A stretch of DNA of 64,000 nucleotides, from IMG/VR virus record IMGVR_UViG_3300032331_000486, positions 1-64,000 of that record; one strand, written 5' to 3'. Of the stretch, positions 26,520 to 43,483 are shown piece after piece. Numbering within the stretch: the first letter of the stretch is position 1; each line of letters begins with the position of its first letter. Source of the DNA: a virus. The notes beneath the pieces were generated by a model. The model had not been told where the DNA came from, did not search any database, and worked only from the letters and a program-made list of their open reading frames with translations. Made by a program: the position numbers and the translations under genes.

Positions 26520-26781
26520 CGCTGCCCGCTTGCTACCTTGCCAACACTGTGGAACAAGTGACGGCACTGTAGTAGCGGCGCACTCCAACCAGCTGCGCGA
26601 CGGCAAAGGACGAGGGCTCAAGGCTCACGACTACCGAATCGCATCTTTATGCTACAAGTGCCACGCTGATCTAGACCAAGGCGCTAGACTGAATAAAGTC
26701 CAGAGAGTTGAAATGTGGGAAGACGCCCATCGCAAAACGATAGGCCTCTTCTTTGAGATGGGGATTATTGGGCCGCTTTAA
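26494..26781 (+). CDS. YbcO/DUF1364-like HNH-type nuclease
   Basis: The 95-residue product has a CQHCG pair, VVAAHSNQLRDGKGRGLKAH and DYRIASLCYKCHADLDQGAR. The H-x-N...G-x-G-x-K-A-x-D...C-x-x-CH pattern matches the small YbcO/DUF1364 phage nucleases, related to HNH enzymes acting in recombination. It is the last gene of the rightward operon. Its 3' end overlaps the 3' end of the giant gene on minus by 17 nt. Confidence 0.75.
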   Translation: MYRNKKLTDAARLLPCQHCGTSDGTVVAAHSNQLRDGKGRGLKAHDYRIASLCYKCHADLDQGARLNKVQRVEMWEDAHRKTIGLFFEMGIIGPL

Positions 26782-29700
26782 CTTGCTCGTTGAATTTCTT
26801 CATCATTGCAACCTTACGATCCTTCATCTTCTGTATTGTTTCATCAGGCCGATCTCTCTCTTGAGCAACCTTTATTTGCTTGTTTATTTGAGAGATCTGG
26901 TTCTCTAAGTAGTTAGCCCTGTTGTAGTATCTCCACTCTGGATGCTCAGACTTGTAGTCAGCAGTAGGCTCCTTGTTCTTGATCAGGCTTTTGATCTCAT
27001 TCTCATGCTTTGCCAAACGGGTTACGTTGTCATAGAAGTTAGCTGAGATTGCAGCAGGAGAACCAGTCTCTCCCAAGAACTTACCGACGATTGGCACTCT
27101 GTACGTTGGCACCTCCTCTGTAGTACCTTCAGCAATTGCGCCAATATACTGAGCCCCTTTCATGATTTCACGACCAACACCGCCCGTTGCTTGTCCAATC
27201 AGATAATCAATCTCATCAGCGGTATAGTCTATAGATCCCTTGGTGTATTTAGTTCCAGCTGGAGACGATACATAGTTTAAGAACTCAGATATGAACTGAC
27301 TTATTGCGCTTGCACTTTCGCGTGAACGCATGTAGCCCGGAGTTGGATTGGTAGCGCGATCCTCTTTGTAGATCGGACGTCCAAACGCATCCTTGTTTGC
27401 AGCAATTGCGGCAAAAGGATCTGCAACAGTAGGCATAGCCATCTGCCACAAGCTTCCAGAACCAAACGGGTTGAACGCTTCTACAGTCATCGACATGATA
27501 TCGACCACTACGTCAGAAGCACCCTTCTTACTGCTGATGACGCCGTTTTGAGCCAGTATGTACTCAGTGATCAGGCGGCCAAGTCCGGGGAATATGCTGT
27601 AGCCCAAAGGCATTGGGAACACTTTGTATGTGCCGTCGCCAGTTAAGCTAGGAAAGATGAAGTTCTTTGCTTTGATGAACTCAGGAGGATCATCGTCATC
27701 AAACCCAGCCATGGCCATAGCCAACGCTTGAGCAATACCGACCACTACACCACCGACCATGATCTTGCGACCAGCTGGGCCAGCGAGAGTGCGGCCAACT
27801 TTCAATCCACCCTGTACAGAAGCATTAAAAAATGCATACAGAACTTGAATCCACTTGCTGGCTGCACCCTTGCGGTTAAAGTTAACAGTCAGGTCTTTGG
27901 CAATAGCCGCGCCTTCTTGCTCACTTAAACCTAAACCACCATCTGCAACAGACTTAGTTGCAATATCAAAAGCAGCCAGACGGACGGCGTTTTCCATGGT
28001 GTCGTTGTAGTCTGACAACCAACCAAATATGCTATCAGCAATCTGTCTGGCGTTACCACGATCAAGCTTGGCAAGCTCTCTCTCAACAATGGTTAACTTG
28101 TTTTGGCCTTTACTGAACTGTTCTTTAAAGCCAGTCTTACCACCAGCTAGTCTGTATCTGTTGTAGGCATCAACCCAGTATGAGCTGACAGCCTTGCCCT
28201 TACGGGTAGCGCGCAACTCCCTGTATATGGCGGCCATGGCAGGCATAGTGTTTAAAAGCACCTGCGCTTGTTTTCCAGCAAGGGGCGTGTTTGTCAGGTT
28301 AATCGTGGCAGAACCAACGTCGCGTAAGAAGTTCCACGCGCCGAACACTGGGTTGTACTGAGTGTTAACCGCCGCCATCCAACGAGTTGCGCTGCCAACT
28401 ATTCCCAGAACCATGGCAAGCTTTTCAGATTCTAAGTTCTTCAATGTCTCAGCCATACGCAAAGCGCGTGGATCATTACCATTAAAGAAGACATACCAAT
28501 CTTTTCCGTTGACGCGAACAGCCACTACATTTTTACTGTCGCGCAGTGTTGGGTTGACCTTGTATCGGACTAACCCAGTTTTAGGATCAATGCTCGGACT
28601 CTTAGGCTCTTGGAATAAGTTCTGTGCATCCGTGGGGTTTAGACCAAGCCTGATCAGCTCATCTTCAAGCTTCTTCTTGTTCTTGATAGCGTCAGGGTTG
28701 ACGGCCATCCAAAATCCGGGGTTTGGATTTTTAATAACCAGACCAATTAAAGCTTTACCAACCCGCGCAGCTTCTGAATTAATAATGGCTTTCTCGCGTT
28801 GGACGGCAATGTTGGAAACAATATCAACAACATCTTTCAACGAGCCCATGGCTCTTTTACTAAACGGGCCTTTGGTCTGAATGCCTTTGGCTACTCCGCT
28901 ACCAGTGTTGACATAGTCCAAGTCTGCGCGCTTTAAAGGAACATAGTTGGGGTATGTTTGATTCCAAATGTCAATAGTTTCTTGAGTCTCTAGACCGCCC
29001 TCTACTGCAACTTCCTGAGTCCTTCTTACGATAGCGTCAACTTCTTTAGCCAGTGCCTCGAACTTATCCTTCTGGTCTTGGGTTAAGTTGTTCAGGTATG
29101 CGTTTGCATCATCGGTAAAAATGCCAGATCCAGCATCCGGCATGGTTAGATTGATTTTGGCAATCTGAATGTTGTACTCTTCAGCGTGGCGGTTATGGAG
29201 GTACTCCTCCAGCTCGGCCAGCGTGACTTTCTTCTCGCGCATATCTTTCAAGATAGGCAGAAGTTCTTTGTTCAGGAAATCCTGTATGGCCTCTGACGCC
29301 CTACCATGCATCAACGTCTCTTTTGTATAGGCGTCGAAGTTCTCCTGAATTGTTCCAGCGCCTTTCTCAATCTCACGAATAACGTGCTTGAGGTCAACAA
29401 ACTTGTCAGCCAACTGATACTCAATGTTTGTCATGGTTGTTGAGTCTGGCGATGACCACTGAGCTACTGGAGCTGGGCCGCCTTGGTAGTTCCTAGAGAA
29501 GAATGGCTCTGGAGTTCCAAACAACTTAGGTGCAGAGTCTGCTGCAGCTGCAAACTTCTCTGCGTTCTTGAGCAAAGCCAAGATGTCGCTGTCAGAGAAC
29601 TTGATTGTGAAGCCAGCATCTCTGAGCCATCTACGCACAGCTTGGATCACACGTTGTACCAAACCACCATAGAGCCCGCGCTCTGCCATGATGGCCACGA

Positions 29701-32700
29701 TTTCTTTAGCACGACGCTCGTCAGACAGGCCGGGTTGTGTGCGGTCTACTTGAGCTGCAATGTCTTTAACAAGCTTAGAAGTCTCTTCTAGCGTCAAGAC
29801 GTTTTTAACCAAAGCGCCCATCAACTGCTTGCCAAGCATTGCTTCCAACGCGGCGTGACCGATAGCCTCATGCGCCAACACTTCCTGAACACGCTGGGCG
29901 TTAGGTAGGTTGTCAGCTACGAGGTAGACAGTATTGCCTGAGTACCACACACCCTCAACATCAGAAGGCGCGCACTGGTCTGGCAGATCATCAGAAGATT
30001 GAACGACGTTAACCCTGATACCTTTGATCGGTACGATTTGAGACTGAACATCTTTAACGCTCTGGCCGCCCTCGGCAACCTTACGAGAGAACATGCCCTT
30101 CTTAGATTCGCTGTCGTCAAACTCAACTTTCATCACCTCGCGGGCAAGTTGACCGGCGTCAGCTTCCACAGTCGCTGGGTAACTCTTATGCAACTGCTTG
30201 ATGAGTGAAATGATTTTTTCAAAGTTTGCTATATACGATCCGCGAGACATCTCATAGCGCCCACCCTGCTTAGCCATGGAAATGTCTTTGATAGACGTAA
30301 CAAACTTCTTAGGCGCGTCACCAGATATAGATAACCTAAAGCCAAGAGGCCTGTAGCTATCCAGACTCAACGTCCACAGGTTTTGTGTGCCACGAATAAT
30401 GACGTTGGTGTAAGTACTCTTTTGAAGATCGGTAAACGTCTGGAAGTCAGGCAGGTTTGGCAACAAAAGTGGTTGCAGCATATCTGCCAAGTTTTTGTAC
30501 TCTTCAACTTGAGTACCTTCGTACTTGTTTTGCAAAATCTTTTGCCAAGCAGCCAATGTATATTGCACGGCAGCATTAGGATTACGCAGGCGTACAGGCT
30601 GTGCGCTGATAGCCACAGGCTCATACTTGGCAGGCATGATCACACCAGAGACTGGCTCTGTCTGATTCATGATGGTGAACTTAGCAATCTCACCGCCGTC
30701 TTTGTCAAACAGCTGCGCCGCTCTTAGGATATTTCCAAGAGCAACATAACGTGTAGTACGTCCACCAGTTACTGACTTCAAAGCAAACCACTGATCCAAT
30801 GGAGGATTGCGCCATGAGGAGCTCTGGTCAATGCTTGGGCCTTCCAAGGTAGCCAAGGTAGGAGCAACCCTTCCCTCTGGAATGTTGCGCTTAAAGATGA
30901 CTTGGAAGTTAGATGGTGAGTATGGGTTACCAGTCTTGGACTTTCCAATCCTAGCTTTGTCAACTTTGATACCAATTACAACCGCGCTTGCTGGAACATT
31001 ATTTAGCATGAAAGACTCAAAGCCAGTGCCAATTGCGTACTGATTTCTCAAGGCGTTTAGAGTTTTTTCTCTGCGATTACCAAGAGTAGCAAAATCCGCA
31101 TCCAATGCTTCTTTTCGCTTGGTTGCTACTTGAATATCTTTTTCGGTAGCGTTAGGTGCAGCAATTTCTGCGGCCAAAGCTTGCTGTTTTAAGATAATTT
31201 GGTTTCTTGCTTCAACAAAGATTGTATTGAGATCGGTGTCAATCTCTTCTACAACCTGCTGGGCAGTACGGCCGTTCAAGGCTTGGGCAATGTCGTCCAG
31301 AATGTTTTGCTGGGTGGGTATTGAGCCAATAACGTCCACATTAAACTGAGCCATTACCACATCAGTCAGGAATGGGTTGTTGCTGTCCAAGCCTTCCTCG
31401 ATAAGGTTTTCTTTAATCATCTCGGCATTGAGCGGGAGAACGCGGCGCTCTAGGGCATTGGTGCCTGTAGAGTTACGCAGCTCAATATTGGCCAAGTAAC
31501 TAGCCTCGATAGAGTCAAAGAACTCCTGTTGATCTGCGGAAGATAAAAGTCCAGCTGTTCCAGATGCTTTGTGTGCCAAGTCTGTGCCGGCAGCCTCTTC
31601 AGGATCATTAAATGATTGCTGTCCTAAGAACGCACGAATATCAGCGTGTTCGTTCAGGTACTCAGCAGTAGCGACGTCACCATATCTATTGATAAAGTCA
31701 ACGCCACCAACTTGAGTACTATTAGATCCACCAGATGTGTTGGACTTCAAACTAGCCAGCTTCTTTTTAAGCATGGCTGAAATGCGTCTTTCAGCTGGGA
31801 TGCTAGTAGCCAGCATGGTGAACGATGGCCACTCGACCTGACCAGTGCGGTGGATACGACCCAGCAGCTGGATGAAGACGCTGATGTCTCCATGAGGCTG
31901 AAGCACAATCATATGGCGTGGGCGCTGATCAAAAGCCTCAGTAGATGCATGTAACGAGATACCAGTTGCACCAGCAGAGTTAATGATCAATACATCGATT
32001 GGCCCGTTTTCAGATTCTTCCCCGTTTTGGAATGAAGAAATCATTTCAGTACGCTCTGGATTGTTTAGAGACATGTACTTTGGTTTATCACCGTTGTAAT
32101 TTACAGCCGTGCTACGACCAGTAATTTCTCTCACTACCAAGCGTCTTGCTTTAACTCCGGGTGGAGGCTCGTTGCCAACATGTGTTTTTTCGCCAATTGT
32201 CCAAACGTACTTGTTCTCAAGCTCGGTACGCATGTAGTCAATTGGAGCTACAGGCAGATCAGATTGGAAGTCTTTGATCATGTCTGCCAAGTTGTCGTAG
32301 CCAGCCCTGATTGATGGAGGCATCATGGAGTATGGAATCTCAACTTTGATGTTGTCCTTTTCATTTCCAGTGGCGGACTTCAGTGTGATTTTTCTAGTCG
32401 AGTCAATGGCGCGCTGCAAAAGAGTCTGCCAACCAAAGTTAGGAATCTCATCGCCAATCTTGATGCCGTTCTTTTCAACAAAGTCATCTAACGCACTGCC
32501 GTTTGTGTTTTGCAAGCCAACAACAACCTTTTCGCCGTTGTTCATCTTGTCCACGACCATGTCTACGGCAGTTTGAGTTTTGGTAGAAAGCAGCAAAGTT
32601 CCAATGTAGTTGTGGACTACAGAAGTAAATGGATTGCCTTTGGCTTCATTGAAGGCAGTTGGGCCTTCTTTACCAAACATAGAGCCGGGAGGGCCAAGTG

Positions 32701-35700
32701 TGTTAATAATTTCAACTTGAGTTCCGGGATCTTTTGTCCACTCTTTAAGAGCGCGATCAGCATTTACCAACGCTCTGAGAATGACTGTAACTTTATCCAC
32801 TTCCCTGATGTCACGCGGTGCATTTGGATCACCCGTAGCTTCATCAGGATAGAAATACATCTTCACGCCTTCATACGATCTTTCGCGGCGCAACATGGAG
32901 CCAGACTCCACCAGCATCTCAGATGAAACTTGTTGCAGTACGTCCGTCTTCACACCCTTACCAAATAAGGCCGTCAACTCTTCAGGAGTGTTAGCCGCAT
33001 AACGTAAGTTAGTGTGGATGTACAAAGGCATGTTGTCTGGGCGCTTTGCAAACGTCGCAGACAAGTACACAGCAGGAGGTGGCTGCCAATCTTCAGGAGC
33101 ATCCTTGTCTTTGCCCAACAAGTTAAGTCCTGTGAGCAAGGACATGAAGAATGCGTTTTGACCCCTAGAGTTTGGATTAATTGCCACGCCAGCTGCGTTA
33201 TGGGCTTCGTCCATAACCAATACGGCTTTACCAGCGGCTACTAAAGAAGCTATGGCATTCTGTCTTGCTGGGGATCCAACACCACCGTTAAGCTGAGAGT
33301 AAGACGTAAACAGTACATCCATACCTTTTGGCAGCTCACCGTTTTTGGTGATGTACGACATTAAATTAGGACCAGCTTTATCCGCGTTTTCAAATACAGT
33401 TTTGATCCTGCCATTACCCATGTTTCTTTGGATGATGGCTTTGTTGTTGGTCATTCCAATTTTGATATCTTCATGGCCAATGTTGATCAAGTCTTCGTAC
33501 ATCGCTGTGTACATTGATTTGCTAACGGTTACAAAGATTGGGATCTTCCCGTTTTTCTTAGCCCAGACAATCATGGCAGCTGCAGCACGGCCTTTACCCA
33601 CGCCGGTGTCGTCACCGATGATGAAACCCTTACCAAGCTTGTTAGCCTGAATAGCCAGAGCCAATCCGTCTATCTGGTAACCAGCTAGTCCTTTAGCCAT
33701 CTTCTCAACCGATGGATATCCAAGTTCGTTAGCTACAAACTCATCTATGTTTCCAACTTGAGCTTCAAGATTTTCTAATGCTGTGTAAGCGTGTTGAGAC
33801 TGAGCGCGTGGTAGGTAGATGCCATCGCTAGAGAAGCGTGACTTGCCAAGGTAAACAACGCGGGATTCAGTATCAATAGGTTCGGCTTGGACAGGAGTCT
33901 GGTTCTTGGGGCGGCGTTGTACCACTGTGCGTAAGCTGTCCACAAACGTGCGTAGATGCGCCTTGATGGATTCACCAAATCTTTTTACCAGCAACTCATA
34001 AACTTGATTGATACGTTGGGCTAAGTCACTAACTCTTTCTCCAACGGCATTCCATACCTTCTGAATAATTGGTTGGACGTTAGCGTATTCTTGATCGCCT
34101 TTTCTAGAGTACAGCCCGCTGTTGGGATCATCACTAGTGTTCTTAGTGTTCTGGGCAATACGACCCATAGCCTCGTTGGCTTGCTTATCTAAACGAGCTT
34201 CGCTATTTTCTTCTGTAACTTCTTTCGCCACCTCGGGAGCTTTGCCGTTCAAGGCAACATCTAGCTCATCGAGTAAAGCCTCAAGACCTAAGCCTTCCAA
34301 CTCTTTTGGAATGACTGTCGGGCCTTTGGCTGTCGGTGTTCTTGGCGCTTTTGGAGCGCCGGGTTCTTTAGGAGCTCCGCGAGGTGCGCGTGGGCCACCT
34401 TTTGGTTTTTCTGGTTTACCTAGCTTATCAAAGATGGCGTCTAGGTCTAAGTCAGAAAGTCCTCCCAGTTCAGCTCCTGATCCTCTACCGCTGTCAAGGC
34501 CTCCTTCTGGCTTGCCGGTTTCGCCACCGCCGGATCCCCTGCGTTTACCATTTCCATAATCCGGCTGTTGTTCTCCAGTACCAGCTGCACCAGTTGTTCC
34601 TCGTCCTCCACCGGCGGTAGTTCCAGCGCCCCGTCCTGTTTCAGGTAGCTGTTCGCCGACTCCACTGCCTCCTTGAGTCCCCACTCCCGCACCAGTTTCT
34701 CCATTTTCCAGCGTACCGCCTGCTGGTACTCCCCCGGCAGGTCGATTTGCACCGCCAGTAACTGGCTTTCGTTTTCCGGTACCCACCACGACTTGTTGGC
34801 TACGATCACTGGTTTGAACATATCTACTCCAAAGTTCATCAAATGTAGTTATCCGATTGACATTAAAGTCATTTGGATAAAAGTTTTCCGTTTGGTTTCT
34901 GCCGGCAATAACTAAGACGCGCAACGGCCAAGACGCACCTTGTTTACGATATAAGTTGCCAGCGATTTCATAGTGGTCTACTACGTTGTAGTTGGCATAT
35001 AACCAGTTTAAGAATGCCCGATCAGGCGTGGTTATTGTTCCAGCTTTAAGGTGTGCTCCAAGTATCAATACAGCACGGCCGTTGTTAGCCATGGCGCGTA
35101 AAGATTTGGCCGCAATCAATTGCTCTAATTTACTAATCTTGTAGTTTTGACCATCCCAAGATGGAACAAGTTCCGGAGTTGGCAAGTTGTCAAACGGAGG
35201 ATTAGCCAAGACTACGTCAACTTCTTGATCTCTCAAGTCATCAATCTTCTCAAGAGCATCACCTTGAATAACTTTGCCGATCTGCATCAGCTCCATGTTC
35301 TTAGCGCGGTGTGGGTCTAACTCTATCGTTGTGACGTTTTGTGGGTTGGCAGCTACCACCAGCATTCCGTTACCGCCCGTGGGGTCTAGGACTGTAGTGG
35401 TGGACTTAACTTGTGCCAGCATACCGGCTAGAAAGCCGATAGGCAGAGGTGTGGAATAAGCGTTGTTTGTCTTGCTCAGGACAGACTGAACGTCCAATGT
35501 AGGCTGGGTTTGATACAGGCCAACGATGTGATCGTAAATAGCCTTTGTATCTGAGCCTGCTGCTCTCATATCGGTAATGACTTGGCTAACAAAGCGTACA
35601 GCTGCAGCTTCAAAGTCTTCTTGAGTCTGCTTGAGCTTGACGCGGTCACCCTCAAAGTCGGAAATCTTGTAATTTTCTATTTCGCGTTGATCTTTGGCTG

Positions 35701-38700
35701 GGTTAAAGCCAAGCAAATCTGGCTTTTGTAAGTACGCTTTGATACCGTACTCTGCCAACTCACGGTTGTTCTTTGGCCACCAGCCTTGGCGCATGTGATA
35801 GAACATGGACTCAGCCATTGAGCCGTTTTTAATCTCAGGCCACTTGAATAGACCCATTTCTTCCATGATGGAGTCAACGCGCTTTGCCATGTCAATGATG
35901 CGCTGGTTGACTTTGCTTATTTGCATGGCTTCAGGAGTCAAGACTCTTTCTTGACCATTGCGAAGTTCTTTGGTTTCTTCAGCTTCTTTTTGGTCTTTAA
36001 ACCACTGCAAGCCACCATAAGTGCCTGAATCTAAGTTGTACTGATCCAAGACGGCGTAACCCAAGTCTTCAATAAAGACGATCTTGGTTTCCATCTTGTA
36101 GGTCTTGACCGCCAGAGTCTCTGGATCAATCTGTTCAAGCATCTGCTTGTAGACTTCATTGAGTGTGGGTCGCTCTTTGCCTGCTGGATAAGATGTTCCA
36201 CCGTAACCATTCTTCTTTGATATATATCCATCAGCAACCGTTGGGCCTACGAGGTATGGCGATCCACCTTTAGATTCATCAAACAACATAGACTCAAAGG
36301 CGCGAGACAATAGTTCTTCGTTGGAACTCCAATAGGCAGGACTTCTGTTTTCTGCTTCATCTAAAGCGCGGGCATCTCTAAAGAACTGAGTTTGTTTGTA
36401 TGAATTCCTAAAGATTGGCGCTTGCTCATAATACGAGCGGTTTGTAATCGCAGCAAAAAACGCTTTCTTAGGAGGTAAATTACGGTTGTCTGTGCTGTTA
36501 GATGTATCCCGCAGAATGGCTTTTAGATTGTTTTCTACTGTCTCAGGGTCTATGGTGTTTCTAAGAACACTGACTGTGCCTTCCATCAGCTTTTTGCCGT
36601 TGGCTCCTTGCTTAAGGTTCCAATCTAAGCCATGTTGCCACTCATGACCAAGCGATCCATCGCCTTTGGTTTTGGTGAGGTTTATTTCATTAAGATTTGG
36701 ATAGTAATGAGCTGCAGTTCTACCGCCTCTTCCTTGCGCTCCAATAGCCATCTTGAGCTTTTGACCCAAGCCAAGCATCTTTGGAGAAATACCAGAGACA
36801 TCCGCCAAGTCATACATGGCGTCATAGATGGCATTCAAATGAGCCGCGCGCTCGCTCTGGTTAACCCAGTTACCAAAGTCAATACCGCCCGGGAACATGC
36901 CAAACGTATCTACAAAGTCTTTTGTATCAACGTCACGACCTTGGCGGTGATCACGCATACCACGGCGGATGATGTTGCCTAGCTCTGGTGGTACTTCAGT
37001 TTCTTTTTTGACGATGCGGTTAGTTTGATCGGTTGAGTCTTCATTAGCTCCAAACAACTGGAACATCTTGTCAAAGATTCCAGTTAAGTTATTAACTTTT
37101 AATTTGGTACGAAGAGCAAGACCATCTGGCGTGTACTTTAATGTTGACGAATTTGCATTTTCGTCTTGAACGTATTTTTCCTTTAATGCAAGATCCAAAT
37201 CGCCTGCACGGGCGTGAGAATCAAAGACTGCTTGAAGTTTTTGAAGCGCATCAACATAACCTTGCACAAGCATTTGAACTTCATCTTGCTTACCCGCTTC
37301 CAAAGCCATTTTGATAGCTTGTCGGCTACCCGTTCTTTCAGATATACGAACAGTTCTGGCATTTTTAAGAGCTGCAAGAATATAGTCAGATGCAGGCAAT
37401 ACATAGCTTACAACGCCCTCTTTGTACATCATCGTGCCAAACGAATTGTCTGGGTTTGAATTGATATCGAGAAGAGTATCTTTAGCCAAGCCTGCCAACA
37501 TCTTGGTGATCTGGCTGTCTGTAGCATCTTTAGGTATTGGAGGAGCAGTAATTAAACTTTTTCGGTTTTTAACAAACTCAGCGCCACCACCTTGGATGCT
37601 TACCTTTTCAGGTTTGTACAGAGCGGAAATAGTTACACGCTCAGGGCCTTTGTAATCAGGGTTGTCCGTGGTCGCTGGGACTGAGCGATCTGTAATACGA
37701 AATCCAAACTTAGACAGAGCAGTCTCAATAGTTGAAACATTGGGGATATCCACAGGGATGCGTAGCAACATTTCGTCAGGAAAGATCGCGGGCATCAGGT
37801 CTTCAGCTACGGCATTTCCGTACAAGAGAGACGCAACAGAATCTGCATTGCCAGACTCCATGGCAACCTTCATAGGATTCTTATTGAATTCCTCTGCTTT
37901 TTTCTTTTGCTCTTCAGCCTTAGCTTTTTCCTCTGCGGCTTTAGCTTTTTCTTCTTCAGAGACTTCTACCTTTGGAGGCTTGGGCGCTTTAGGTGGAGCA
38001 GCGGGGCCGCCTGTAGGTTTCTCTGGTTCTTTTACAGGTGCGGCTGGGCCAGCTACAGGAGCGGGTTCTGCAGGCTTTTCTTCTGCTGGCTTCTCTGTAA
38101 CCTCTGCTGGTTTTTCAACAACTTCTGCAGGTTTTTCTTCTTTTGTAACTTCTTGTGGTGGAAGCTCAAGCGCCTGAATGTCATCAAGAGATAGGCCATA
38201 CTTTTCTTGGCCTTCTTTAATGGAGTCTAGATAAGTTTCAAACTCAGCAATCTCGTCTTCTGTATAGCCTCTTAATCTAGAGAACTGTTTCCAGTCACCG
38301 CTGTCGTAGGCGGCTCTTTCCTCTGGCGTCCAATCTTCTGGATTGCTTTCCTTTTCTTTGGCAGCCACGCTGTTTGAAAGCTCTATGTGTTTGTTTTCCC
38401 ACTCTTCAAGGGATTGAGTAGGAACTTCTTCAACTTTAGCGGGCTCAGTTGGTCCAGCTGTAACTTCTGCCGGAGCTTCTGGTGCGGCAGGCTCTTCTAC
38501 TTTGACGGGCGCAGCTGGCCCAGCAGTTGGAGCCGCTGGCTTGATGTTGAATAGCTCTGGATATTTTTGAGCGTACTTCCTAGCTTCTTGTTGGCTTATT
38601 GCAGATGGCAGGCCTTCCATTACTGAAACGGCTTCATTGATGCCCATGCCGCCTCTCAGGATTACAGTCTCAAGACTCTGCCCACGAAATACTGGGATTG

Positions 38701-40483
38701 GCGCTTTAGGATCAAGTCCTTTGAAGTAACTCATAGGAACAGCAAACCCGCCATAACCAAACTCACCATGAATTGGGACTAGTCCATTTTTTGGATCCTT
38801 AGCCTTTTCATGCAACGCTTGATCGGCTTTGACTTCTTCTGGTGTTCTTGCTGGCGCTACAGGAGCGGCAGGTTGAGCCACCTTAACAGGCGCAGATGGG
38901 CCGCCTGTAGGAGTGATCGGAGCGGCTGGCGCTTCTGGCTGGGTAACCTGAACGGGTGCAGCAGGGCCTGCAGTTGGAACTTGTTCCACTTGAGAAGGTT
39001 GTTCTTGTACAGCTTCTGCGGGTTTACCCTCAATCTGCTGTTCAAGTTCAGCCAGCATGGCCTCGTAGTCTTGGCTTCCTTCTGCTTCTGGAATGGTCTG
39101 TTGGACTAAGTCTGTGCTTGGAGCCTGAGTCTTTGCCTCAATCTCTGCGGCAGCCGCAACTTCTTCTTGAGTCGCAGCTGAACCTTTTGCCTTGACAACA
39201 TCGACGTAGTTAGGATCGGTTGGGAGAACAGTTTCACCATTGAATGGATTGATAACTGCTGGGCCTGCAGGTGGAACGGCAGGTGAAACGGCAGGTGAAA
39301 CGGCAGGTGAAACGGCAGGTGGAGCGCCTGCCGGAGGAGTACCTGCCGGAGGAACACCAAGTATTTGTTGATTCTGTTGAACCAGTTGCTGAATGCCTTG
39401 TGGCTGTTGGCCAGTCGCGCCAGCACCGCCACCCAACGCACCCATTGCAAAACCAGTTACAAGCCCCATTCCTGCGGCTTCTGGAACGCCTTCAAATATA
39501 GGTCTATTTGTGGCGTAGTTCATCCACATCTTTTCTTGGGCTGACTGAGGCATCTCTTGGAGTGCGCCTTCAGATAGTCCGGAACCAACAACACGCTTGG
39601 TAAAGTCAACAACTGACTTGGCTGGGCCTAATGAAGAACCGGCTGCAAGCATGGTTTGTACGTCATCAAACCCCATTCTGTTGGCCAGACGACCGCCAGC
39701 AACGCCAAACAACGCAGTGCCAGCACCACTTCCTAATGCGGCTAACGATTGTTCTGTTGTGAGTAACTTGTTTGCGTTTTGAGCGCGTATGTCTTCGGCT
39801 GCAGAGCCTGCGCCCAAAATGCCTTCGCCCAGACCACCAGCAACTACGGCTCCAACTTTAGGAGCGGCTTTTAATATACCCCTAGCTATGCCCGCACCAC
39901 CAATCATTTGAGGCAGCGACTCGCCAATAGAAGTAGCAATCGTGCTTGGGTTTTGTAAAGCAGCTTGAATTTTTCCACCAAAGCCTTCAGCTTCGTTTAC
40001 TTTGCGATTGGCCGCTTGCTGGGCTTCTGAATAGTAGGTGTCTAGGATTGCATTAGCTTCTTTTGGCTTGTAACCATTTTGCTCAAGGAACTTACCTAGC
40101 GCGCCTCGGGCTGGGATATCAGCCAAGCCAACAAATGATTCAGGCAGGCCAATAGCCCCTTTGAGGAAAATAATGCCAGCGTCTACCAGAGTACCTGAGA
40201 CTGTACGATCTGGAGACTCTTGGTTGCGCTTCTCTAATGCAGCCTTGTACGCTTGGGCATCCATCACATTAGGAGCCATTGGAACGGCTGGTTCAGCTGG
40301 CGCGGCCTGAGTTACTGGTGCAGCTGCTGGAACTATAGATGGAAGGCCGGCCTCTGGAGCGCTTGGTTGAGCTTGCGTAGGAGCGCCAGCTGTATATTTG
40401 CCATAACGCGCCAGTAATTCTGTTTGCGTAATATTGTCAGGAACGCCTGTTACCGTTCTGCCATCTGGCATTAAGACATCCAT
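26765..40483 (-). CDS. Giant polyvalent protein: LPD1 zincin, adenine methylase, Strawberry-notch helicase, LPD38-like C-terminus
   Basis: This 4,572-residue protein starts behind AAGGGGCGGGC. In order: an N-terminal MPDGRTVTGVPDNITQTELL segment; a Gly/Ala-rich hydrophobic region (about 95-360); Pro/Ala-rich linkers to about 870; an LPD1-type domain with GRGGRTAAHYYP and HEWQH (1280-1284); an N6-adenine methylase with LDPTGGNG (about 1700) and NPPF (1761-1764); a Gly-rich linker; a Strawberry-notch SF2 helicase with GDDTGVGKGR (2290-2299), DEAH (2425-2428) and GRIHRTGQ (2875-2882); a HEAIGH motif (3538-3543); and an LPD38-like end. Such polyvalent proteins, like P1 DarB, are packaged and injected and are thought to protect phage DNA from restriction. 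A second gene appears overprinted at 34447-34821. Confidence 0.85.
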   Translation of the reverse strand: MDVLMPDGRTVTGVPDNITQTELLARYGKYTAGAPTQAQPSAPEAGLPSIVPAAAPVTQAAPAEPAVPMAPNVMDAQAYKAALEKRNQESPDRTVSGTLVDAGIIFLKGAIGLPESFVGLADIPARGALGKFLEQNGYKPKEANAILDTYYSEAQQAANRKVNEAEGFGGKIQAALQNPSTIATSIGESLPQMIGGAGIARGILKAAPKVGAVVAGGLGEGILGAGSAAEDIRAQNANKLLTTEQSLAALGSGAGTALFGVAGGRLANRMGFDDVQTMLAAGSSLGPAKSVVDFTKRVVGSGLSEGALQEMPQSAQEKMWMNYATNRPIFEGVPEAAGMGLVTGFAMGALGGGAGATGQQPQGIQQLVQQNQQILGVPPAGTPPAGAPPAVSPAVSPAVSPAVPPAGPAVINPFNGETVLPTDPNYVDVVKAKGSAATQEEVAAAAEIEAKTQAPSTDLVQQTIPEAEGSQDYEAMLAELEQQIEGKPAEAVQEQPSQVEQVPTAGPAAPVQVTQPEAPAAPITPTGGPSAPVKVAQPAAPVAPARTPEEVKADQALHEKAKDPKNGLVPIHGEFGYGGFAVPMSYFKGLDPKAPIPVFRGQSLETVILRGGMGINEAVSVMEGLPSAISQQEARKYAQKYPELFNIKPAAPTAGPAAPVKVEEPAAPEAPAEVTAGPTEPAKVEEVPTQSLEEWENKHIELSNSVAAKEKESNPEDWTPEERAAYDSGDWKQFSRLRGYTEDEIAEFETYLDSIKEGQEKYGLSLDDIQALELPPQEVTKEEKPAEVVEKPAEVTEKPAEEKPAEPAPVAGPAAPVKEPEKPTGGPAAPPKAPKPPKVEVSEEEKAKAAEEKAKAEEQKKKAEEFNKNPMKVAMESGNADSVASLLYGNAVAEDLMPAIFPDEMLLRIPVDIPNVSTIETALSKFGFRITDRSVPATTDNPDYKGPERVTISALYKPEKVSIQGGGAEFVKNRKSLITAPPIPKDATDSQITKMLAGLAKDTLLDINSNPDNSFGTMMYKEGVVSYVLPASDYILAALKNARTVRISERTGSRQAIKMALEAGKQDEVQMLVQGYVDALQKLQAVFDSHARAGDLDLALKEKYVQDENANSSTLKYTPDGLALRTKLKVNNLTGIFDKMFQLFGANEDSTDQTNRIVKKETEVPPELGNIIRRGMRDHRQGRDVDTKDFVDTFGMFPGGIDFGNWVNQSERAAHLNAIYDAMYDLADVSGISPKMLGLGQKLKMAIGAQGRGGRTAAHYYPNLNEINLTKTKGDGSLGHEWQHGLDWNLKQGANGKKLMEGTVSVLRNTIDPETVENNLKAILRDTSNSTDNRNLPPKKAFFAAITNRSYYEQAPIFRNSYKQTQFFRDARALDEAENRSPAYWSSNEELLSRAFESMLFDESKGGSPYLVGPTVADGYISKKNGYGGTSYPAGKERPTLNEVYKQMLEQIDPETLAVKTYKMETKIVFIEDLGYAVLDQYNLDSGTYGGLQWFKDQKEAEETKELRNGQERVLTPEAMQISKVNQRIIDMAKRVDSIMEEMGLFKWPEIKNGSMAESMFYHMRQGWWPKNNRELAEYGIKAYLQKPDLLGFNPAKDQREIENYKISDFEGDRVKLKQTQEDFEAAAVRFVSQVITDMRAAGSDTKAIYDHIVGLYQTQPTLDVQSVLSKTNNAYSTPLPIGFLAGMLAQVKSTTTVLDPTGGNGMLVVAANPQNVTTIELDPHRAKNMELMQIGKVIQGDALEKIDDLRDQEVDVVLANPPFDNLPTPELVPSWDGQNYKISKLEQLIAAKSLRAMANNGRAVLILGAHLKAGTITTPDRAFLNWLYANYNVVDHYEIAGNLYRKQGASWPLRVLVIAGRNQTENFYPNDFNVNRITTFDELWSRYVQTSDRSQQVVVGTGKRKPVTGGANRPAGGVPAGGTLENGETGAGVGTQGGSGVGEQLPETGRGAGTTAGGGRGTTGAAGTGEQQPDYGNGKRRGSGGGETGKPEGGLDSGRGSGAELGGLSDLDLDAIFDKLGKPEKPKGGPRAPRGAPKEPGAPKAPRTPTAKGPTVIPKELEGLGLEALLDELDVALNGKAPEVAKEVTEENSEARLDKQANEAMGRIAQNTKNTSDDPNSGLYSRKGDQEYANVQPIIQKVWNAVGERVSDLAQRINQVYELLVKRFGESIKAHLRTFVDSLRTVVQRRPKNQTPVQAEPIDTESRVVYLGKSRFSSDGIYLPRAQSQHAYTALENLEAQVGNIDEFVANELGYPSVEKMAKGLAGYQIDGLALAIQANKLGKGFIIGDDTGVGKGRAAAAMIVWAKKNGKIPIFVTVSKSMYTAMYEDLINIGHEDIKIGMTNNKAIIQRNMGNGRIKTVFENADKAGPNLMSYITKNGELPKGMDVLFTSYSQLNGGVGSPARQNAIASLVAAGKAVLVMDEAHNAAGVAINPNSRGQNAFFMSLLTGLNLLGKDKDAPEDWQPPPAVYLSATFAKRPDNMPLYIHTNLRYAANTPEELTALFGKGVKTDVLQQVSSEMLVESGSMLRRERSYEGVKMYFYPDEATGDPNAPRDIREVDKVTVILRALVNADRALKEWTKDPGTQVEIINTLGPPGSMFGKEGPTAFNEAKGNPFTSVVHNYIGTLLLSTKTQTAVDMVVDKMNNGEKVVVGLQNTNGSALDDFVEKNGIKIGDEIPNFGWQTLLQRAIDSTRKITLKSATGNEKDNIKVEIPYSMMPPSIRAGYDNLADMIKDFQSDLPVAPIDYMRTELENKYVWTIGEKTHVGNEPPPGVKARRLVVREITGRSTAVNYNGDKPKYMSLNNPERTEMISSFQNGEESENGPIDVLIINSAGATGISLHASTEAFDQRPRHMIVLQPHGDISVFIQLLGRIHRTGQVEWPSFTMLATSIPAERRISAMLKKKLASLKSNTSGGSNSTQVGGVDFINRYGDVATAEYLNEHADIRAFLGQQSFNDPEEAAGTDLAHKASGTAGLLSSADQQEFFDSIEASYLANIELRNSTGTNALERRVLPLNAEMIKENLIEEGLDSNNPFLTDVVMAQFNVDVIGSIPTQQNILDDIAQALNGRTAQQVVEEIDTDLNTIFVEARNQIILKQQALAAEIAAPNATEKDIQVATKRKEALDADFATLGNRREKTLNALRNQYAIGTGFESFMLNNVPASAVVIGIKVDKARIGKSKTGNPYSPSNFQVIFKRNIPEGRVAPTLATLEGPSIDQSSSWRNPPLDQWFALKSVTGGRTTRYVALGNILRAAQLFDKDGGEIAKFTIMNQTEPVSGVIMPAKYEPVAISAQPVRLRNPNAAVQYTLAAWQKILQNKYEGTQVEEYKNLADMLQPLLLPNLPDFQTFTDLQKSTYTNVIIRGTQNLWTLSLDSYRPLGFRLSISGDAPKKFVTSIKDISMAKQGGRYEMSRGSYIANFEKIISLIKQLHKSYPATVEADAGQLAREVMKVEFDDSESKKGMFSRKVAEGGQSVKDVQSQIVPIKGIRVNVVQSSDDLPDQCAPSDVEGVWYSGNTVYLVADNLPNAQRVQEVLAHEAIGHAALEAMLGKQLMGALVKNVLTLEETSKLVKDIAAQVDRTQPGLSDERRAKEIVAIMAERGLYGGLVQRVIQAVRRWLRDAGFTIKFSDSDILALLKNAEKFAAAADSAPKLFGTPEPFFSRNYQGGPAPVAQWSSPDSTTMTNIEYQLADKFVDLKHVIREIEKGAGTIQENFDAYTKETLMHGRASEAIQDFLNKELLPILKDMREKKVTLAELEEYLHNRHAEEYNIQIAKINLTMPDAGSGIFTDDANAYLNNLTQDQKDKFEALAKEVDAIVRRTQEVAVEGGLETQETIDIWNQTYPNYVPLKRADLDYVNTGSGVAKGIQTKGPFSKRAMGSLKDVVDIVSNIAVQREKAIINSEAARVGKALIGLVIKNPNPGFWMAVNPDAIKNKKKLEDELIRLGLNPTDAQNLFQEPKSPSIDPKTGLVRYKVNPTLRDSKNVVAVRVNGKDWYVFFNGNDPRALRMAETLKNLESEKLAMVLGIVGSATRWMAAVNTQYNPVFGAWNFLRDVGSATINLTNTPLAGKQAQVLLNTMPAMAAIYRELRATRKGKAVSSYWVDAYNRYRLAGGKTGFKEQFSKGQNKLTIVERELAKLDRGNARQIADSIFGWLSDYNDTMENAVRLAAFDIATKSVADGGLGLSEQEGAAIAKDLTVNFNRKGAASKWIQVLYAFFNASVQGGLKVGRTLAGPAGRKIMVGGVVVGIAQALAMAMAGFDDDDPPEFIKAKNFIFPSLTGDGTYKVFPMPLGYSIFPGLGRLITEYILAQNGVISSKKGASDVVVDIMSMTVEAFNPFGSGSLWQMAMPTVADPFAAIAANKDAFGRPIYKEDRATNPTPGYMRSRESASAISQFISEFLNYVSSPAGTKYTKGSIDYTADEIDYLIGQATGGVGREIMKGAQYIGAIAEGTTEEVPTYRVPIVGKFLGETGSPAAISANFYDNVTRLAKHENEIKSLIKNKEPTADYKSEHPEWRYYNRANYLENQISQINKQIKVAQERDRPDETIQKMKDRKVAMMKKFNEQVKAAQ
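34447..34821 (-). CDS. Overprinted 124-residue gene inside the giant gene
   Basis: In the +1 frame of the giant gene, an ORF begins at ATG 34821 with GGAG at ideal spacing (34830-34827) and runs to TAG at 34449-34447. Its sequence (MFKPVIVANKSWWVPENESQ, then LLAVQIDLPGEYQQAVRWKM, and an acidic end LNWEDFLT) looks like an ordinary folded, helical, acidic protein with Trp and well-mixed residues. The giant protein's own frame here is low-complexity Gly/Thr-rich linker. That contrast and the ribosome site suggest true dual coding. Function is unknown. Confidence 0.6.
   Translation of the reverse strand: MFKPVIVANKSWWVPENESQLLAVQIDLPGEYQQAVRWKMEKLVREWGLKEAVESANSYLKQDGALELPPVEDEEQLVQLVLENNSRIMEMVNAGDPAVAKPASQKEALTAVEDQELNWEDFLT
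35162..35174. repeat. Dispersed palindrome copy (GGAACAAGTTCC) in methylase domain
   Basis: An exact 12-bp core with one flanking T; the other flank is changed (G for A). In the giant gene it encodes PELVP, just after the NPPF motif. Confidence 0.5.
38975..38988. repeat. Dispersed palindrome copy TGGAACTTGTTCCA
   Basis: An exact 14-bp copy in the Pro/Ala-rich linker of the giant gene, encoding VEQVP on minus. Confidence 0.55.
39267..39326 (-). repeat. 12-bp tandem microrepeat in the giant gene
   Basis: Five head-to-tail units of GCAGGTGAAACG (plus strand), with small changes in the first and last unit. They encode repeats of PAVS in the Pro/Ala linker. Slippage would alter linker length in steps of four residues without a frameshift. 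Confidence 0.75.
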
Positions 40484-42232: not shown

Positions 42233-43483
42233 TTAAGGCTCATTGGGGTCAAAGTTGACATCAGGCACCGTTTGATTTGGGTTGTAACCGGGATATGGAT
42301 TTTCTGGGACGGTCATAGCGTTTGGATCATAGATAGGCGACTCGGTTGAACCTGTTGGAATGAGCTCCCCATTAGCTCCCGGTGTGTATCTTCCGCCTTG
42401 TGAATCACTTATATAAGTTCCATCTGGGGATAGCGTGTATCCAAATGGAACTTGATCTGGGCTAATTGAATTTCTATTTAGCAAAGTGCTTGGATTAATA
42501 CCGGCAGCTTTTAGTACGTTAGTAATGGTGTCACCAGTCATACCGGAAGCTTTAAGGTTTTTAATAAGCTCTGCAGTACTAGCCGCAGTACCAACAGCAC
42601 TTTGTAAGAAGCTTGGCTTGGCGTTGAACGTACTTGCAGTAGATCCGCCAATACCTTTGATGAGGTTGGCTTGATTGGCAAGTAAGGTGCCGGGGTAGTT
42701 TCTTTGCTCAAGGTACTGGTTGTACAGAGCATTGAGGCCGGCTTGGTTTTGAGCTTGCTGAGTATTTCCAGCAGCACCCAAGGCTGTAAGATTTTGCAAT
42801 CCATACTGAGCTTGTTGGGTTCCTACGTTTCCTGCGGCTTGATTTGCCGTTGCGGCTTGAGATAGACCTTTGAGGCCTACGTCTGTACCGTACTGAGCTT
42901 CTTGAATCCTGCGAGCTTGGTCAGCATTAAATTGAGTTGCCGCCTTATCGTAAGCGGTGTTGTATCCCTGACCAGTAATAGTGGCTAAGTTAGTTCCTAG
43001 ATTACGTTGAGTCTCAGTATCCATCAAAGCTTGACGGGATCCGCCGTATGCTCCTGCTTGGGTGGACTTAGCCGCATTACCTAACTGAGTAATTTGAGCT
43101 TGGCGACGAGCCTCCTCCAATTGTGGATTAAGCGCGTTCTGCAGATATGGGTTCATGTACTGCTGGGCGGCATTTGCATCAAATGCACTACCAACAGGGT
43201 TGTAACTTGTTCCAGCTGATTTATTGCCAATATCTAAAAGATTGGTACCGGCCGTAGTCATGGTAGACGGCAAGGTTAAGTTTGATAATCCTTGAAATGC
43301 TTTATTTTGAAGCTCAGAAGTACCAGCGGTTAACTGACCCGTGTACTGAGGAGCAGGATTATTAAGAAGCGCCTGACCCTTACCCAGTACGTCTTGAACG
43401 TAAGGTTGCGTAAAGGTGCTTGGTCCCGTTACCGTTGCCGAGCTGGGCGTATCGGTAAGTCCTGAAGATGATAGTAGTGCCAT
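42233..43483 (-). CDS. Putative internal virion/ejection protein, Ala/Gln-rich
   Basis: The 416 residues are dominated by Ala, Gln, Asn and Thr helices (LNPQLEEARRQAQITQLGNA, then KSTQAGAYGGSRQALMDTET), with a hydrophobic stretch near 290 and a Pro/Asn-rich C-terminus. Such helical Gln/Ala-rich proteins downstream of tail genes in short-tailed phages are typically ejected with the DNA to form a channel across the envelope. The role is inferred from composition and neighbourhood. Confidence 0.6.
   Translation of the reverse strand: MALLSSSGLTDTPSSATVTGPSTFTQPYVQDVLGKGQALLNNPAPQYTGQLTAGTSELQNKAFQGLSNLTLPSTMTTAGTNLLDIGNKSAGTSYNPVGSAFDANAAQQYMNPYLQNALNPQLEEARRQAQITQLGNAAKSTQAGAYGGSRQALMDTETQRNLGTNLATITGQGYNTAYDKAATQFNADQARRIQEAQYGTDVGLKGLSQAATANQAAGNVGTQQAQYGLQNLTALGAAGNTQQAQNQAGLNALYNQYLEQRNYPGTLLANQANLIKGIGGSTASTFNAKPSFLQSAVGTAASTAELIKNLKASGMTGDTITNVLKAAGINPSTLLNRNSISPDQVPFGYTLSPDGTYISDSQGGRYTPGANGELIPTGSTESPIYDPNAMTVPENPYPGYNPNQTVPDVNFDPNEP

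Follow-up and report, generated by a model that had tools for sequence, protein, structure and literature searches.

The DNA between the methyltransferase and helicase parts of a giant phage protein is open in two frames of the same strand, which raises the question of whether the shorter frame is a gene of its own and, if so, what its product may do beside that of its host. The window, meaning the whole stretch of 64,000 nucleotides analysed, contains the following features around this point:

26765–40483, minus strand: host gene, encoding a 4572-aa polyvalent protein (LPD1, methyltransferase, helicase, LPD38)
34823–35575, minus strand: adenine-N6-methyltransferase region with an NPPF motif
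34827–34830, minus strand: Shine-Dalgarno-like GGAG, 5 nt before the nested ATG
34447–34821, minus strand: nested gene of 124 codons plus TAG; product acidic, predicted to be folded, net charge -12
34448–34822, minus strand: giant-frame Gly/Thr/Ala low-complexity linker from methyltransferase to helicase
32858–33640, minus strand: first domain of a Strawberry-notch-type helicase (PF13872)
31643–32134, minus strand: C-terminal domain of the Strawberry-notch-type helicase (PF13871)
42233–43483, minus strand: neighbour gene matching the DNA ejection protein family phrog_4287

The host protein matched LPD1, the Strawberry-notch helicase domains and LPD38 in Pfam, and its methyltransferase region matched DNA methyltransferase families of PHROGs. 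Judged by its sequence, it is a DarB-type polyvalent protein with a methylase-helicase dyad, the type example of which is DarB of phage P1 (PMC5512222): an adenine methyltransferase with NPPF is followed by a SWI2/SNF2-type helicase, together with LPD domains, in one giant protein. Such a protein is thought to shield injected DNA. It is probably carried in the virion and injected, although the only context for this is the adjoining gene for a DNA ejection protein.

The nested frame runs from the ATG at 34821 to a TAG ending at 34447, in +1 relative to the 4572-aa ORF, and is thus a complete ORF of the same strand with its own start site inside the host gene. The first-pass annotation had described it as a 124-residue minus-strand frame preceded by GGAG at a spacing of 5 nt, and both the coordinates and the GGAG (34830–34827) were confirmed. 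This GGAG is composed of a Trp (TGG) and a Ser (AGY) codon of the giant frame. In every listed relative with Trp-Ser at this site the Ser codon is AGY, a type that otherwise makes up only 25–48% of their Ser codons, and several relatives have only a GGA-type match. In most lineages the nested ATG shares nucleotides with the Tyr codon of a Trp..Tyr motif conserved in the giant frame, and the Shine-Dalgarno sequence is built from the Trp codon of this motif and the codon after it. The RNA around the start site was computed to fold weakly. Just 5' of the ATG, the codons at 34860–34830 of the minus strand (TTTGATGAA) are invariant in 18 genomes, third positions included, and may belong to the translation initiation region.

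When codons were permuted in a single genome, the test proved weak alone (p about 0.003–0.7) because the Gly/Thr linker fairly often leaves the nested frame open. It was therefore replaced by comparative tests on 18 close relatives, and these are decisive. None of the 18 had a stop in the nested frame and all of them (18/18) kept the ATG. Recoding of the giant protein with the codon usage of the genome gave a mean of 41 nested-frame stops (minimum 24), permutation of synonymous codons within the giant gene gave a mean of 49 (minimum 35), and even an ancestry-linked recoding, shared by position and residue, never gave fewer than 4 in 300 runs. In the reverse direction, recoding of the nested protein with genome usage led to an expectation of about 172 stops in the giant frame, and none was observed.

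Residue identity over the overlap was higher in the nested frame (76.9%) than in the giant frame (67.8%), and the indels found there preserve both frames. At giant wobble positions, the difference fell from 0.447 in the methyltransferase to 0.123 in the overlap and rose again to 0.495 in the helicase; inside the overlap, the most variable position was the first one of the giant codons, where the nested wobble lies. This switch in constraint goes on at the nested ATG and off at the TAG. When approximately 3900 codons of the giant gene were scanned in 18 genomes, the third position was less variable than the first in only six consecutive bins of 25 codons, and these (codons 1875–2024) correspond to the nested gene. 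Omega values derived from four-class substitution rates were 0.26–0.38 for the nested frame inside the overlap versus 0.73–1.06 for the giant frame; in control regions, they were 0.12–0.15 for the giant frame and 0.57–0.71 for the same +1 frame.

That the nested ORF is a real gene is thus almost beyond doubt. Its protein is subject to purifying selection, and more strongly so than the linker frame, whose residues are nearly neutral although the frame is kept stop-free and hydrophilic. The first-pass annotation had inferred true dual coding, had proposed a codon-level test of each frame, and would have given up the inference if the alternate frame were broken in homologues or free of purifying selection. 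The stop counts, wobble positions, omega values and bin scan uphold it, and the case is better than was claimed: the frame is intact in homologues of the same clade and purifying selection on it is present.

The way in which the two frames share the DNA follows from their phase, as the first codon position of the giant frame is the third position of the nested one. In the window genome, T accounts for 4% and G for 56% of nested third positions, compared with 29% T and 19% G in upstream giant codons. The avoidance of T leaves the giant frame without stops and with few bulky hydrophobic residues, and G at these positions gives giant-frame codons for Gly, Ala, Glu, Asp and Val. The preference for any base but T at the nested third positions thus keeps the giant frame open and hydrophilic; no linker stop was found in any relative. 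The low-complexity linker is thus a consequence of the folded protein encoded in the other frame. The earlier impressions that the nested protein looks folded and that the giant frame over it is a low-complexity linker both agree with the AlphaFold2 models: the nested protein reached pLDDT 89.5 and pTM 0.81, whereas the linker from the same DNA (87% GASTPNQDERK) reached only 50.9 and 0.10 and lacked secondary structure. The nested protein lacks Cys and any evident signal peptide, and the net charge was negative in 53/53 members of its family (-2 to -16).

A scan with the nested protein detected 13 viral contigs with 64–80% identity over the full length, and loci retrieved by the methyltransferase alone also retain the nested ORF. 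A broader scan by methyltransferase yielded 43 viral loci. Those that were read have a +1 frame that stays open over some 130–160 codons at this position, whereas the other frame is rarely open; locus L053 is truncated at the end of its contig. A homologous ORF also lies at 100513–101013 on plasmid NC_010480 of the laboratory cyanobacterium Picosynechococcus sp. PCC 7002. With held-out profiles, the nested frame ranked first among six-frame segments at every tested locus except that of a Bacteroides phage, with E values of about 1e-3 to 1e-19, cyanobacterial plasmids included (0.003 for L075). Profile-profile comparisons spoke for homology: they connected the clade of the window with a second sub-family (E 2e-6) and the latter with the cyanobacterial set (E 1.3e-6), and a third one gave E 8e-4. 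When the nested profile alone was used in a six-frame search of 369 genomes, a single new case appeared, and this one, too, is nested within the gene of a methyltransferase-helicase.

Of the 47 rows in a methyltransferase tree, 42 fell into one group with 100/99 support. The nested ORF lies at the same place in 40 of these 42, that of the Bacteroides phage being a candidate only, and in none of the 5 outgroup rows. The two members of this group without the nested ORF, Pleionea (L091) and Leptolyngbya boryana (L101), retain the methyltransferase-helicase; therefore, the nested gene is not essential everywhere. The simplest reading of the tree, with the root placed between the two groups, would be one gain and two losses. 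On this sequence evidence, the nested gene and its host are inherited together within one methyltransferase clade that includes phages, bacterial genome contigs and cyanobacterial plasmids, and the protein is retained even in distant relatives of very different base composition.

Searches for known families were negative. The first-pass annotation had suggested comparing the protein with phage proteins, and this identified no family: Pfam and PHROGs returned only sub-threshold, inconsistent matches, and tblastn against INPHARED phages and PLSDB plasmids returned nothing, as relatives there are too divergent or absent. Sequence searches against solved structures gave only chance-level matches, and Foldseek against PDB and BFVD followed by VIA-align gave no meaningful match, which is not proof of a new fold. 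No stand-alone copy of the family was detected by profile in 573 genomes or in four scans of viral contigs with the nested protein. A description of the nested gene was not found in the open-access full-text literature, subscription papers and preprints not being covered.

Two other explanations of the open frame itself were weighed. The nested frame could be read only as a programmed frameshift extension, producing a truncated methyltransferase fused to the nested sequence, as it lies directly 3' of the methyltransferase and the open frame reaches upstream of the ATG in some relatives; in the clade of the window, however, it opens just 9 codons before the ATG and so is not open well upstream, the pattern of constraint changes at the ATG and not earlier, GGAG-ATG is found at the homologous Tyr codon in almost every phage and bacterial-contig lineage, and inspection by eye showed no obvious slippery heptamer, all of which make such a product very improbable. 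That the ORF is merely the by-product of a nucleotide or RNA element, such as a packaging signal or RNA structure, is largely refuted: an element of this kind can produce wobble conservation, and there is a short invariant stretch just upstream of the ATG, but for 124 codons the substitutions keep to the period of the nested frame, indels respect both frames, the protein is predicted with high confidence to fold and survives large shifts in base composition, and Rfam had no match for the region.

With regard to function and origin, the alternatives are less sharply separated. The product could be a DNA mimic like Ocr or ArdA, inhibiting host restriction or the methyltransferase of the phage itself, and it shares with these proteins a small size, the acidity seen in every member and an antirestriction context (PMC5512222); nevertheless, this acidity varies, some members being only mildly acidic (-2), and neither a sequence nor a fold match to them or to any solved structure was found (no significant match with Foldseek/VIA-align). 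We regard this role as unlikely. As for which frame is older, the capture of a small pre-existing gene between methyltransferase and helicase, with the linker frame overprinted onto it, has an even chance. The nested frame is predicted to be folded and the linker disordered; forms without the nested ORF, namely the outgroups and the Pleionea loss, mostly have short linkers, and the fact that a long linker and the nested gene occur together speaks for a linker that owes its existence to this gene. Against this, no stand-alone relative is known from the genomes and contigs scanned, and the Trp..Tyr motif that contains the start signals belongs, in most phage and bacterial-contig lineages, to the methyltransferase itself. 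Codon usage was rejected as an age criterion, as it had no consistent polarity and contradicted itself between GC-rich and AT-rich genomes. De novo birth of the nested gene inside an expanding linker is not excluded, and the order of origin of the two frames remains unresolved.

The explanation that we prefer is dual coding together with a partner made from the same mRNA, to which we give a probability of roughly 0.8 overall. Ribosomes would initiate at the internal GGAG-ATG of the giant mRNA and produce, in many copies, a stable and acidic protein with a mostly helical structure beside the nascent methyltransferase-helicase. Independent initiation is very probable, albeit without protein or ribosome-profiling data. 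All matches found for the nested family sit in a methyltransferase-helicase linker, thus making a dedicated partner encoded on the same mRNA the most likely role; it might act as an assembly, holding or packaging factor or as a regulatory subunit, in a manner analogous to the service of Ulx to DarB in phage P1. As this partnership is inferred only from position, co-inheritance and charge, we place it slightly short of an even chance, and any specific activity lower than that. The presence of the gene on plasmids also makes a role limited to capsid packaging unlikely. A wider proposal, according to which the protein belongs to an ancient undescribed family, possibly with a new fold, that exists only out of frame inside methyltransferase-helicase genes and works as an obligate trans-acting subunit or packaging factor for the injected antirestriction machine, with the linker serving mainly to carry its gene, remains tentative and on the doubtful side of even.

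Among known systems, Rz1 within Rz of phage lambda is likewise a complete +1-frame gene inside a phage gene; both spanin products are required in one process, and gene callers often miss Rz1 (PMC6139136). Rz1 is, however, an outer-membrane lipoprotein for lysis, whereas the protein described here looks soluble and folded, lacks Cys and lipobox and lies in an antirestriction-type gene. An Rz1-type o-spanin was ruled out by the absence of the lipoprotein Cys signal. DarB of P1 and the host protein have in common the arrangement of methyltransferase and helicase in a giant, probably injected protein, but P1 darB, unlike the host gene, has no match to the nested family (six frames of the darB-ulx region against the family profile, no match at E below 1). 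Ulx, listed as a virion component that aids DarB localization (PMC9024508), is also small and encoded beside a methyltransferase-helicase, although by a separate downstream gene and without detectable sequence similarity to the nested family.

The text of the survey of polyvalent proteins by Iyer et al. (2017) does not mention overlapping ORFs (PMC5512222). As the nested protein is almost never annotated, this family of giant proteins probably has a partner that went unnoticed. Long dual coding is seldom as clear-cut as at this locus, in which one frame keeps a folded protein and the other only a composition, conserved from proteobacterial phages to cyanobacterial plasmids, and it adds an unrecognised and testable component to a widespread antirestriction-type machine. 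Standard annotation can overlook such genes or, as in Gloeobacter, retain the nested gene and truncate its host.

On plasmid pGMOR1 of Gloeobacter morelensis (L098, 1618–4419), RefSeq gives the nested ORF as the hypothetical protein WP_230844304.1, starts the helicase gene after it and leaves the methyltransferase unannotated; the host frame there is continuous through methyltransferase, nested region and helicase. The Bacteroides phage BS-TP4 (L083, 5833–6180) has a +1-frame ORF of 115 codons at the same place, with a charge of -16, which was not recovered by the held-out profile (E 0.56) and is either very diverged or independent. On the L. boryana plasmid, a close relative, another, structured-looking sequence lies between methyltransferase and helicase, and an in-frame domain may have taken over the nested function there. 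Directly 3' of the nested stop, two phages of different sub-clades (L019 and L026) have in common a segment following the linker (DINxSLxEKETKxKREK...) that is unrelated, suggesting recombination at this boundary. Finally, the N-terminal part of the giant protein contains AVSPAVSPAVSP-type repeats (window positions 39450–39106) and differs strongly among relatives in this part, where third positions are still the most variable.
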